Assembly (NCBI GenBank): GCA_003224055.1
Contig: QHYE01000093.1
Coordinates: 1-49,695 of the forward strand
DNA length: 49,695 bases
Direction: 5' to 3'
Source: Acidobacteriota bacterium
GTDB lineage: Bacteria; Acidobacteriota; Terriglobia; Acidiferrales; UBA7541
A program made the translations under genes and the position numbers. Each line of letters starts with the position of its first letter. Within the stretch, counting starts at the first letter, position 1. Below the pieces are notes generated by a model. It was not told where the DNA came from and did no database searches. It saw nothing but the letters and a program-made list of their open reading frames with translations. Positions 34,599 through 40,738 of the stretch are shown piece by piece.

Positions 34599-37454
<2,856 letters not shown>

Positions 37455-37461
37455 TGGGGAT

Positions 37462-37690
37462 ACGTGCGGCCCTTGCTGGGCCGCGATAGCGCCAGAAGCC
37501 GTCCGGCCGGCTACACGCAAGCGCGCGACCCCAAACGGGTCGTGTCCAGTGCGGCTCTAACCGAGCCGACCTCCCTGCCAGCATGGCTTCGTAAGACGAA
37601 CCACTCGCCAGGCGTTCTCCCCCAGGGGTAGACCGTTTGGCAGGGGCTTCTAGTACGGAAGAGACATTGACCCCGACCGGGCGATGTCGA
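37462..37690 (+). ncRNA. Candidate structured RNA (free RNA or long 5' leader)
   Basis: About 230 nt without a convincing coding frame, starting just after a consensus extended -10. Visible helices are GCGGCCC/GGGCCGC (37466-37484), CGCGACCC/GGGTCGTG (37524-37544), CGGCTC/GAGCCG (37552-37568), and a long-range stem CCCTGCCA (37573-37580) with TGGCAGGG (37638-37645). That stem encloses a TTCG/CGAA hairpin (about 37585-37602). Finally there is GACATTG/CGATGTC (about 37663-37689). AGAAGCC (37494-37500) can also pair with GGCTTCT (37645-37651). This density of pairing suggests a non-coding RNA or a riboswitch-like leader. It does not match tmRNA, RNase P RNA or SRP RNA by their conserved boxes; family unknown. 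Confidence 0.45.
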
Positions 37691-37747
37691 AAACTGTACA
37701 CTCTGTATCTGGTTGCAAAAAATGGTGTTTGCCTTCCCCGAGGCACA

Positions 37748-38464
37748 ATGGTGAAACGCACGCCAATCACGGCAGGGCTTTTTCTGGGAACGCTGGTTCT
37801 TTGCGCGACTTTTTTCGCGCCGCGCGCCGGCGCCCAGATCGCGAAAGTCTCGGAACCGACAGGACGGCAGCTTTTCGTCAATGCCGAACCGCCGGCGACG
37901 CTGAAGCTTGGCGGAACAAGGCCGCGCGCAACTATCTACCTGCCTGGCGAATCTTCTTTTACGGGACGCAACCGTCCGGCCATGAGCATTGACCGGGACG
38001 GAACAGAAAAACTCGTACGAGAAGCTGCGGAACGGCATCGCGTGGACCCGGCACTGGTTCGCGCGGTGATCGAAACGGAATCGAACTGGAACCCGCGGGC
38101 GTATTCGCGCAAAGGCGCCGGCGGATTGATGCAATTGATTCCCACGACGGCACAACGATACGGAGCGTACGACCTGTTCAATCCGCAACAAAATATCGAC
38201 GCCGGGGTTAGACATTTGAAGATGTTGCTGCAACGCTACAATGGCAACCTGGATCTGGCTTTGGCGGCGTACAATGCAGGTGAAGGGGCGGTTGACAAGG
38301 CACAAGGGATTCCGCCGTTCCGCGAAACGCGGGACTACGTGCAAAAAGTGCAGAATGCCTATTTCCGGCCGGGCTCGGGGCGACTTGCAGATGCGTTCAT
38401 CAATCGACACGCGATCCACAGAGACGTCGCGCCTGACGGCCGCATCATATTCAGCAACGAATAG
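37748..38464 (+). CDS. Lytic transglycosylase (SLT domain), exported
   Basis: A 238-residue protein with a signal peptide (to about residue 30, ending AGAQ) and a C-terminal SLT/goose-lysozyme-like domain from about residue 88. It has VRAVIETESNWNPRAYS with catalytic Glu111, GAGGLMQLIPTTAQRYG and NIDAGVRHLKMLLQRYNGNLDLALAAYNAG. It cleaves the MurNAc-GlcNAc bond of peptidoglycan in the periplasm. GAGG precedes the ATG at 37748; a longer frame from 37637 would start inside the structured RNA region and is rejected. The roughly 285-nt leader from the 37447 promoter is unusual. The next gene is also a peptidoglycan hydrolase. Confidence 0.9.
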   Translation: MVKRTPITAGLFLGTLVLCATFFAPRAGAQIAKVSEPTGRQLFVNAEPPATLKLGGTRPRATIYLPGESSFTGRNRPAMSIDRDGTEKLVREAAERHRVDPALVRAVIETESNWNPRAYSRKGAGGLMQLIPTTAQRYGAYDLFNPQQNIDAGVRHLKMLLQRYNGNLDLALAAYNAGEGAVDKAQGIPPFRETRDYVQKVQNAYFRPGSGRLADAFINRHAIHRDVAPDGRIIFSNE

Positions 38465-38599: not shown

Positions 38600-40738
38600 T
38601 TGATATTTCCGGGCGAAAAAAATTTGTACAGGAGCTTCGCCAGCGTTTCGCCAGTTTTTGTGGCGCTGGGATTGGCGCTGTGCGTGGCGCCGACATCTGC
38701 CGCGAGGGCGCGCGCCGAGAGTTCCGGAACCGCTACGACGGTGAAACGCCAAGCGGCGACGACGCAATTTGCGCGCGCCGAAGAACAGCGCGAGCAGCTG
38801 AACAGCAAACCTTCCGAGAAGCGCACGCTCTCCGATTACAAGCAAGTCGTTTCCAGTTACCGCCGGGTCGCGCTGATTACGCCGCGCGCTCCCCAAGTGC
38901 CTGATTCGCTTCTGGCCGTCGCCGAGGTGTACACGGAAATGGGCGACCGCTTCGGGCGCAGCTACTACCAGTCGGCGGCGGACTCGTATCAGTTTCTGGT
39001 GCGCGAGTATCCGAAGAGCAAGTATTGCCAGGATGCCATCCTGCGGATTGCAAAATTGCAGCGCGACCGGCTGGGCGATGCGGAACTGGCGAAGAAAACG
39101 TACGAAGACTTCTTGAAGCGCTATCCGCGTTCGCCGCGGAAACGCGAAGCCCAGGAGTCACTGGCGGAACTGGCGCTGCTGCAGAACAGCGAAGCTTCAT
39201 CTTCGGCGCTGACCGCGGCGGCAAATTCCGCGCCGAGCGAACCCGCCGAAAGAGATGCGCGCCCGAATGCTCCGGTGCATTCCGGCGGCAAATCCGTTGC
39301 GCGGGCGGATTCGCGGCAAGTTCCGCGGGTGCGGCGAATTCGCGCGGCCGCGAATGGCGAGGCCACGCGCGTAACCATCGATCTGGAAGACAGCGTGCAA
39401 TATGCCTCCGGGCGCATTGCGAATCCGGACCGGATTTTCTTTGACCTGCATGCGGCAAAGCTGACGCCGGAAGTGGCACGCGAAAATATTCGCGTGGACG
39501 GCGGCCTGCTGACGGCGGTGCGGGTGGCCCAGAATCATCAAGGTGTGGTGCGCGTGGTGCTGGACGTGGACGGCGTGAAGGAATACACGGCTTCACTGAC
39601 AAATAATCCGACACAGCTTTTGATCGATCTGTATGGAAATTCCGGGACGGCGACGGTACGCACCGCCAAAGCGAGACGCACAGAGCAAGCGGACGGTGAA
39701 GACGCGAGCGCAGGATCGAACAGCGCCCAGAATGTCGCTGCAAGAAATTCGAGCGAGAATCCGCTTCCTGCGCCGGCGGGGAATTCCAACAGCGCGATCA
39801 GTGGCTCGGTTGCGGCGGGCGCCCCGGCGGCGAGACGCAATGCGGGTTCGACGGCGAAAAACTTGAAATCCAAATCCGCGAAGGCGGCTGCTGGAGCGAA
39901 ACCGGAATTAGTTCAGCCTTCGACCGCCCCGCTGCCGACACGCGACGGGCAGTCCACACTGACGCGCGCGCTGGGGCTGAAGATCAGCCGGATCGTGATT
40001 GACGCGGGCCATGGCGGTCACGATACCGGAACGATCGGGCCGACGGGATTGATGGAGAAGGATCTCTGCCTGGACGTGGCGCTGCGGCTGGGAAAAATTA
40101 TTCAGCAGCGCTTGCCCGGCGCGGAAGTGGTTTTCACGCGCGCGGATGACACGTTCATTCCGCTGGAAGAACGTACGAATATCGCGAATGATGTAAAGGC
40201 GGACCTCTTCCTTTCCATTCACGCGAATTCCAGCCGCGATCACGCGGCGCGGGGGATCGAGACTTACTACTTGAACTTGCGGGGCTCAGCGGAAGCGATG
40301 GAGGTCGCGGCGCGCGAGAACGCTTCTTCCCAGGAAGGCGTTCACGAATTGCAAGACCTGGTCAAGAGAATCGCGCGGACGGAAAAAATTGACGAGTCCA
40401 AGGAGTTTGCGGAAGATATCCAGGATTCGCTTGCGAAGCGGATCGAGAAGTCCGGTAGGTCGATCCGGAACCGCGGCGTGCGAAAGGCCCCCTTCGTGGT
40501 GCTGATTGGCGCGGACATGCCATCGATCCTGACGGAGATTTCGTTTTTGAGCAATCCGGCGGACGAAAAGCTGCTGAAGCAGCCCGAGCAGCGCCAAAAG
40601 ATGGCGGAGGGGCTGTACCAGGGCGTCGCCAGTTATCTCCAGAGCATGAACAGCGTGACCGTTAACCTGCCAGGGAGGCCGATGGGCAGTCGGAACGGGC
40701 CGGCGGCTCCCGTGGAACAATCCCGCAACCATAACTAG
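38600..40738 (+). CDS. N-acetylmuramoyl-L-alanine amidase with TPR-like and AMIN domains
   Basis: A 712-residue exported amidase that cuts the peptide stem from MurNAc. A signal peptide lies at about residues 10-35. A tetratricopeptide-like region at about 95-195 (AAVEVYTEMG-type helices, FLVREYPKSKYCQDAIL) resembles YbgF/BamD. An AMIN domain lies at about 245-345 (TRVTIDLEDSVQYASGRI through QLLIDLYG). A low-complexity Ala/Ser linker follows, then a C-terminal Amidase_3 domain from about 460 (RIVIDAGHGGHDTG, SIHANSS, VLIGADMPSILTEISFLSNP). Zinc ligands are visible. The TTG start at 38600 follows GGGGGATGTAGG. The TPR-like module fused to AmiC-type domains is unusual. It may bind envelope partners. 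Confidence 0.9.
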   Translation: MIFPGEKNLYRSFASVSPVFVALGLALCVAPTSAARARAESSGTATTVKRQAATTQFARAEEQREQLNSKPSEKRTLSDYKQVVSSYRRVALITPRAPQVPDSLLAVAEVYTEMGDRFGRSYYQSAADSYQFLVREYPKSKYCQDAILRIAKLQRDRLGDAELAKKTYEDFLKRYPRSPRKREAQESLAELALLQNSEASSSALTAAANSAPSEPAERDARPNAPVHSGGKSVARADSRQVPRVRRIRAAANGEATRVTIDLEDSVQYASGRIANPDRIFFDLHAAKLTPEVARENIRVDGGLLTAVRVAQNHQGVVRVVLDVDGVKEYTASLTNNPTQLLIDLYGNSGTATVRTAKARRTEQADGEDASAGSNSAQNVAARNSSENPLPAPAGNSNSAISGSVAAGAPAARRNAGSTAKNLKSKSAKAAAGAKPELVQPSTAPLPTRDGQSTLTRALGLKISRIVIDAGHGGHDTGTIGPTGLMEKDLCLDVALRLGKIIQQRLPGAEVVFTRADDTFIPLEERTNIANDVKADLFLSIHANSSRDHAARGIETYYLNLRGSAEAMEVAARENASSQEGVHELQDLVKRIARTEKIDESKEFAEDIQDSLAKRIEKSGRSIRNRGVRKAPFVVLIGADMPSILTEISFLSNPADEKLLKQPEQRQKMAEGLYQGVASYLQSMNSVTVNLPGRPMGSRNGPAAPVEQSRNHN

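Follow-up and report, generated by a model that had tools for sequence, protein, structure and literature searches.

The locus considered here raises the question of what lies between the end of an alanyl-tRNA synthetase gene (alaS) and the start of a lytic transglycosylase gene (slt) in an Acidobacteriota bacterium (GCA_003224055.1, contig QHYE01000093.1), of which a stretch of 49,695 nt, hereafter the window, was analyzed on the forward strand. The first-pass annotation had described a structured RNA at positions 37447-37690 and had offered two options for it, a free regulatory RNA or a leader of the downstream transglycosylase. The latter option is supported by the synteny, the conserved promoter and 5′ box, covariation, the lack of a terminator-like site and a frequent hairpin at the ribosome-binding site, whereas the former gained no support from the evidence. 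The structured stretch itself also stood; its proposed end, however, was premature, as conserved features reach the slt start at 37748. On balance, we consider that the gap probably carries a promoter and a structured 5′ leader for an operon of cell-wall hydrolases (slt followed by an amidase gene) in an Acidiferrales-like order, with control exerted after initiation. The features of the locus are as follows.

34599-37454, + strand: alaS, alanyl-tRNA synthetase (list of open reading frames; Pfam tRNA-synt_2c, tRNA_SAD and DHHA1)
37447-37455, + strand: putative extended −10 promoter TGTTATAAT over the alaS stop codon (motif conserved in relatives)
37465-37485, + strand: hairpin inserted between promoter and box (fold −17.2 kcal/mol; alignment)
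37489-37497, + strand: conserved 5′ box GCGCCAGAA, consensus GCGCYRGAA (counts in relatives and controls)
37495-37590, + strand: P1 domain, a helix of 37495-37503 with 37581-37590 around hairpins 37521-37546 and 37552-37568 (folds, arm test)
37607-37641, + strand: 8-bp stem (37607-37614 with 37634-37641) and inner hairpin, in the window's own clade (RNAalifold, nine sequences)
37663-37688, + strand: hairpin GACAU..AUGUC, overlapping a TTGACC word, the counterpart of which resembles a promoter in some relatives (two-sided changes; alignment)
37730-37745, + strand: mini-hairpin UGCCUU-CCCC-GAGGCA (fold −6.9 kcal/mol for 37727-37752)
37748-38464, + strand: slt, lytic transglycosylase, the first gene 3′ of the leader (Pfam SLT, E 6.9e-33; synteny in relatives)
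38600-40738, + strand: N-acetylmuramoyl-L-alanine amidase gene (TPR-AMIN-Amidase_3; Pfam) after slt, its start at 38600 being the mechanical TTG of the list of open reading frames

The stretch appears to be non-coding, as had been claimed, since the length of the alaS-slt gap is not constant modulo three: it ranges from 104 to 293 nt among 22 unique leaders (the window and loci L031-L055). The claim of a structured RNA of about 230 nt was likewise borne out, in that 37447-37690 folds with a minimum free energy of −110.9 kcal/mol against −95.3 (sd 5.0) kcal/mol in shuffled sequences (z −3.10; 1 of 200 shuffles as good). Across relatives, fold strength by itself is modest: the mean z-score is −0.81 in the 65 leaders scored and −0.40 in slt coding windows, and the share of z-scores below −2 is 9% in the leaders and 9% in the coding control.

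The comparison began from 30 loci of named genomes, 25 of which (L031-L055) have alaS directly 5′ of slt; the other five (L056-L060) are SLT proteins of other phyla with no adjoining alaS and were excluded. Acidobacteria titles, or those of members of the phylum, are carried by 24 of the 25 alaS-slt loci, the exception (L038, CAJCHZ010000006.1) being an acidobacterial alaS-leader-slt block under a Betaproteobacteria title, possibly a mislabelled metagenome bin. Candidatus Acidiferrum typicum, placed by NCBI in Terriglobia, Candidatus Acidiferrales, is among the relatives. Genomes that share a genus, a family or the order with the window supplied further leaders, and the 97 loci with an alaS end yielded 70 unique leaders of the order; in three of them (L088, L125 and L128) the called stop codon lies away from the promoter, and these were scored as promoter misses. 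For comparison outside the order, 33 alaS ends were used (13 from a phylum search, 20 from a class search). This comparison indicates that the element is a promoter with a structured leader, ranging across the order, and it identifies a candidate promoter, a box, a 3′ motif, pairing in P1, an enriched hairpin at the ribosome-binding site and an association with particular genes.

The promoter coincides with the end of alaS. The word TGTTATAAT, previously noted at the alaS stop, indeed occupies 37447-37455 and contains the stop codon TAA at 37452-37454; the window's alaS ends in the codons TTG TTA TAA, which hold the promoter. The alaS stop carries TATAAT, one mismatch being allowed, in 64/70 leaders, and TGNTATAAT occurs exactly in 46/70. 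The last sense codon of alaS is a rare leucine codon, CTA or TTA, in 60 of the 70 leaders, while these two account for 8.3% of all leucine codons when 66 alaS bodies, without deduplication, are counted. Because of this excess at the promoter position, it seems that the DNA word TATAAT is itself under selection, beyond the protein sequence of alaS alone. Rare leucine codons that preserve TATAAT through the alaS stop could aid promoter annotation in these genomes. Outside the order, TATAAT is present with at most one mismatch in 7/33 alaS ends, five of which have the exact TGYTATAAT; all five are ends of family f8, and represent every one fetched from it (5/5: L159, L163, L165, L170 and L171). 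The GCGCYRGAA box is absent from these five ends, and family f8 thereby indicates that the putative stop-codon promoter is more widespread than the leader. Family f3 has a TATACT-like site some 20 nt 3′ of the stop, with a box-like sequence after it in the three leaders read (0 mismatches in L133, 2 in L132; L143 is outside the 70). Several relatives (L014, L033, L055, L040-L043 and L046) also contain, inside the leader, TAGTAC ... ATTG(A/C)C followed after 18 nt by a TATNAA-like word, an arrangement resembling a second promoter. The corresponding stretch of the window is 37651-37690, which looks to be without one: the window and L002, L003, L004, L005 and L037 lack 6 nt there, so that the spacing of the second promoter is lost and a hairpin stands in its place.

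On the 3′ side of the promoter, the box GCGCYRGAA is found with at most one mismatch in 45/70 leaders and with at most two in 63/70. The corresponding counts are 0/70 and 13/70 in coding windows of the same sequences and 0/33 and 6/33 in alaS ends outside the order; given the coding control, the count of 63/70 at two mismatches is partly due to chance. Two leaders within the 63, L043 (offset 44) and L128, probably owe their match to chance, and the box had not been found in L043 or L053 in the first pairing analysis. The offset of the box from the alaS stop is 2-11 nt in 61/70 leaders and 34 nt in the window, which retains the box despite the hairpin inserted between it and the promoter. This hairpin is missing from all eight clade relatives aligned with the window. 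That it is a genomic repeat was ruled out, as it is present in a single copy in its own genome (at most two mismatches). The −10 element, the box (at most two mismatches) and the 3′ motif described below (at most one) occur together in 54/70 leaders. On the scale of the order, sequence conservation is confined to the short 5′ box of 9 nt and the 3′ motif.

The box leads into the P1 helix, the letters of which vary between relatives, for example GAAGC..GCUUC (L044), AAAC..GUUU (L071) and CCGUGUC..GGCGCGG (L004). An order-wide MAFFT alignment shifts the register of P1 between genera, and for this reason a permutation test and clade alignments were used in place of a single order-wide covariation alignment. 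In the arm test, each 5′ arm was paired with its own downstream stretch or with those of others, which avoids choosing partners by eye; in the main version, near-duplicates were removed (67 to 56 leaders), whole sets were permuted and four arm settings, including the earlier one, were run. Own pairing reached −9.77 kcal/mol against −8.55 (sd 0.25) kcal/mol for permuted sets, and none of 20,000 permutations was as low in the 56 representatives. The other three settings gave p values of 0, 0.00055 and 0 (20,000 permutations each), so that all four lie at or below 0.0006, whereas control arms taken from alaS coding DNA gave p 0.73. An earlier test that retained close kin (68 leaders) was weaker (own −9.04, foreign −8.00), with a rank below 0.05 in 12/68 leaders and a median rank of own against foreign of 0.33; P1 is evident in not every relative. 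The P1 domain of the window has a fold z-score of −2.4, with 2 of 200 shuffles as good.

Further 3′, structure can be followed at the level of clades. The long-range 8-bp stem around a hairpin that had been reported by eye corresponds probably to the pairing of 37607-37614 with 37634-37641, which is recovered from the alignment, every pair being broken in 0 to 3 of the nine aligned sequences. RNAalifold of 37594-37710 in these nine sequences, the window included, gave 29 pairs, 8 of them with two-sided changes; these 8 include two from the 8-bp stem as well as some from the GACAU..AUGUC hairpin. With a small covariation term (−0.33), the alignment lends support that falls short of proof. In the RNAalifold structure of four sister leaders, 2/17 pairs show two-sided changes, and a small hairpin takes up the box, in competition with the base of P1. 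Covariation among relatives, the absence of which the first-pass annotation would have taken as evidence against its proposal, is thus seen both in the P1 arm test and in the two-sided changes of the clade alignments. As a separate observation, tandem near-copies of GGGGTTAA(A/G)TCC precede slt in the leaders of one clade, most clearly in L043.

At the 3′ end of the leader, the arm GCCTTCCC (37731-37738) covers the likely Shine-Dalgarno sequence GAGG at 37740-37743, 4 nt 5′ of the start codon. Within about 410 nt of the alaS stop, GCCTTCCC is found exactly in 45/70 leaders and with at most one mismatch in 60/70, compared with 1/70 and 14/70 for the reversed motif and 0.6% and 23% in shuffled sequences. 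Pairing of this motif was analyzed in the 56 leaders, comprising 48 representatives, that had both elements. Together with the bases that follow it, mostly RRGGY, it forms a hairpin of at least 4 pairs in 32 of them, against 7.7 expected after shuffling of the downstream side (sd 2.3, maximum 16); part of this enrichment could arise from Shine-Dalgarno selection alone. The other 24 motif-bearing leaders are without the mini-hairpin, and ten leaders have 41-154 nt between the motif and the estimated start of slt, so that masking cannot be the sole role of the motif. Pairing of the motif with the 5′ end of the leader was rejected, p being above 0.05 in 17 of 20 arm settings and the remaining values (0.001, 0.017 and 0.038) being attributable to multiple testing. 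With local upstream arms, with the P1 loop or with downstream arms as partner, p ranged from 0.06 to 0.97, and neither the P1 loop (mean z −0.08) nor the upstream sequence (mean z −0.01) was enriched for complements of GCCTTCCC. Since no upstream partner of GCCTTCCC is supported, no switch between a masked and an open state is visible.

The genes that follow the leader bear on what it serves. In two loci of genus g32 (L101 and L103), the leader stands directly 5′ of an amidase gene (Pfam Amidase_3 and AMIN) and slt is not at that place; as slt homologues occur elsewhere in the two genomes (G087 and G070), slt is missing from this place, which does not prove its loss. From these two loci it seems that the leader is tied to the hydrolase gene pair of slt and amidase rather than to slt alone. 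Two other loci, L124 and L217, resemble them by eye (L124 without Pfam confirmation). No second genomic context for the leader was seen in a pattern search of 95 genomes of the order: TATAATN{4,10}GCGCYRGAA gave 40 matches in 38 genomes and the reversed pattern 7, and among 30 matches inspected as loci 25 lie at alaS and 5 elsewhere. At least two of the remaining ten (G100:C166 and G085:C92) are second matches away from alaS places, so that matches elsewhere than at alaS are roughly as numerous as control matches and give no sign of another context. Genomes with a variant promoter or box are among those without the pattern, as is the window, in which the insertion exceeds the allowed gap. In L223 and L204, at about position 1500 of the oriented locus, a promoter and a box-like sequence stand before other genes, in L204 before a DinB-like start (by eye); the counts fit chance, and the layout resembles that of the slt leader.

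The reading that we favor may be outlined as follows. Sigma-70 polymerase would start about 7 nt after the extended −10 element in the alaS stop, near 37462 in the window, which would place the 5′ end of the RNA no more than a few bases from the GCGCYRGAA box in the majority of relatives. Transcription would then proceed through slt, and probably the amidase gene in the same transcript. The 5′ end would fold into the P1 stem-loop domain, and the 3′ end would often form a small hairpin in which the conserved arm GCCUUCCC lies over the Shine-Dalgarno sequence of the first gene. The 5′ domain may shield the message or receive a regulator, and the 3′ hairpin may restrict the access of ribosomes. 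Expression would most likely be set after initiation, at translation or message stability, and translational control is our best guess at the mechanism. It is tempting to speculate further that an order-specific class of leader RNA, with the box, P1 and the anti-Shine-Dalgarno arm GCCUUCCC as its hallmarks, monitors the condition of the cell envelope, directly or through a dedicated RNA-binding protein, and sets the dose of transglycosylase and amidase from a promoter held by the alaS stop; we regard this extended proposal as tentative and rather doubtful.

Several other explanations deserve consideration. The position of the box 2-11 nt after the stop in 61/70 leaders, at or near the expected +1, together with the modest overall fold strength, would suit an element that acts as DNA, the box and the next bases being an operator or an initially transcribed sequence that sets promoter strength, with the folds incidental. 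However, the P1 partners co-vary at a variable distance, which an operator does not need, and the window keeps its box though the inserted hairpin moves it to 34 nt past the stop, so that we hold such an element to be unlikely. A riboswitch-like sensor, in which the box and P1 bind an envelope-linked small molecule or ion and thereby control the operon, would account for the conserved 5′ box, the covarying helix, the position of the leader and the cell-wall genes downstream; in several relatives, though not in the window, GUGUC could by reading pair either with a near GAGACA or with a far GGGCAC, giving two candidate folds. On the other hand, P1 and its loop vary strongly between genera, a conserved box of about 9 nt is short for an aptamer, the search of the order revealed no second genomic context and the window has no Rfam match. 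The strong sequence change in P1 is easier to square with a binding site for a protein, or with a 5′ stem-loop that gives protection, than with a ligand pocket, and a sensor of this kind appears quite unlikely.

A free small RNA, some 100-250 nt long and unconnected with slt, could likewise be expected to have its own promoter and structure, and the variable spacing from the 3′ motif to the estimated slt start would be in keeping with it. Nevertheless, a consensus scan of 37200-38000 detected no terminator-like site (1.1 expected in shuffles), although 3′ ends that are processed or made by other terminators would escape such a scan; the synteny is with hydrolase genes, pairing of the 3′ motif over the ribosome-binding site is frequent, and the amidase gene comes next after the leader in L101 and L103. 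An independent RNA is accordingly very improbable. That the gap is an ordinary unstructured 5′ untranslated region, folding by virtue of its high G+C content, agrees with the unremarkable z-scores of most single leaders and with a share below −2 that equals the coding control, but is hard to reconcile with an own pairing unmatched in 20,000 permutations, the two-sided changes and the conserved box and 3′ motif; we give it scarcely any credence. Growth and lysis depend centrally on how peptidoglycan hydrolases are controlled, and the host order consists of soil bacteria of which little has been cultured. The element represents a concrete, testable RNA in this order; its putative promoter is preserved by way of the stop codon of alaS, which encodes an essential tRNA synthetase.

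With regard to known systems, the leader is placed among candidate structured cis-regulatory 5′ leaders by two features read from the sequence, a position between promoter and gene in conserved synteny and helices with covariation. The c-di-AMP (ydaO) riboswitch precedes cell-wall hydrolase genes and acts by transcription termination. The present leader shares the place 5′ of such a gene and differs in having neither an Rfam match nor a terminator-like site; the earlier judgment that it is not of the c-di-AMP class agrees with Rfam 15, in which positions 37350-37850 of the window have no match at thresholds relaxed to E 10. The description as an RNA of no known family also held, since no match was found anywhere in the window at the gathering threshold, and a tRNA/tmRNA search found none. 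RNA thermometers and similar elements hide the Shine-Dalgarno sequence in a hairpin. Such a short hairpin at the ribosome-binding site is common to them and to the leader, the arm GCCUUCCC of which is, by contrast, conserved in sequence and present in 24 leaders without the hairpin. Acido-1 and Acido-Lenti-1 (RF01686 and RF01687), uncharacterized structured RNAs of Acidobacteria, are listed as not cis-regulatory in the table of PMC2864571; they too are acidobacterial structured RNAs, to which the window shows no Rfam match. The nearest published likeness found is the yjbJ motif (WRC-39-1), a weak riboswitch candidate with unknown ligand that also precedes a transglycosylase gene. In the portion of PMC11109978 that describes it, this motif is reported only from Streptococcus and has two hairpins, the second of which lies about 30 nt 5′ of the Shine-Dalgarno sequence and has a U stretch like an intrinsic terminator; the main text of that paper contains no word beginning with “acidobact.” By description, the acidobacterial leader is set apart from the yjbJ motif by the lack of a terminator-like site and by a candidate promoter in the preceding stop codon. 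Among the matches listed in a literature search that left subscription papers and supplements outside its scope, there was no report of such a leader in Acidobacteriota. The element, as compared here, matches no catalogued riboswitch and is filed as a putative new, uncatalogued structured leader of a known general kind.
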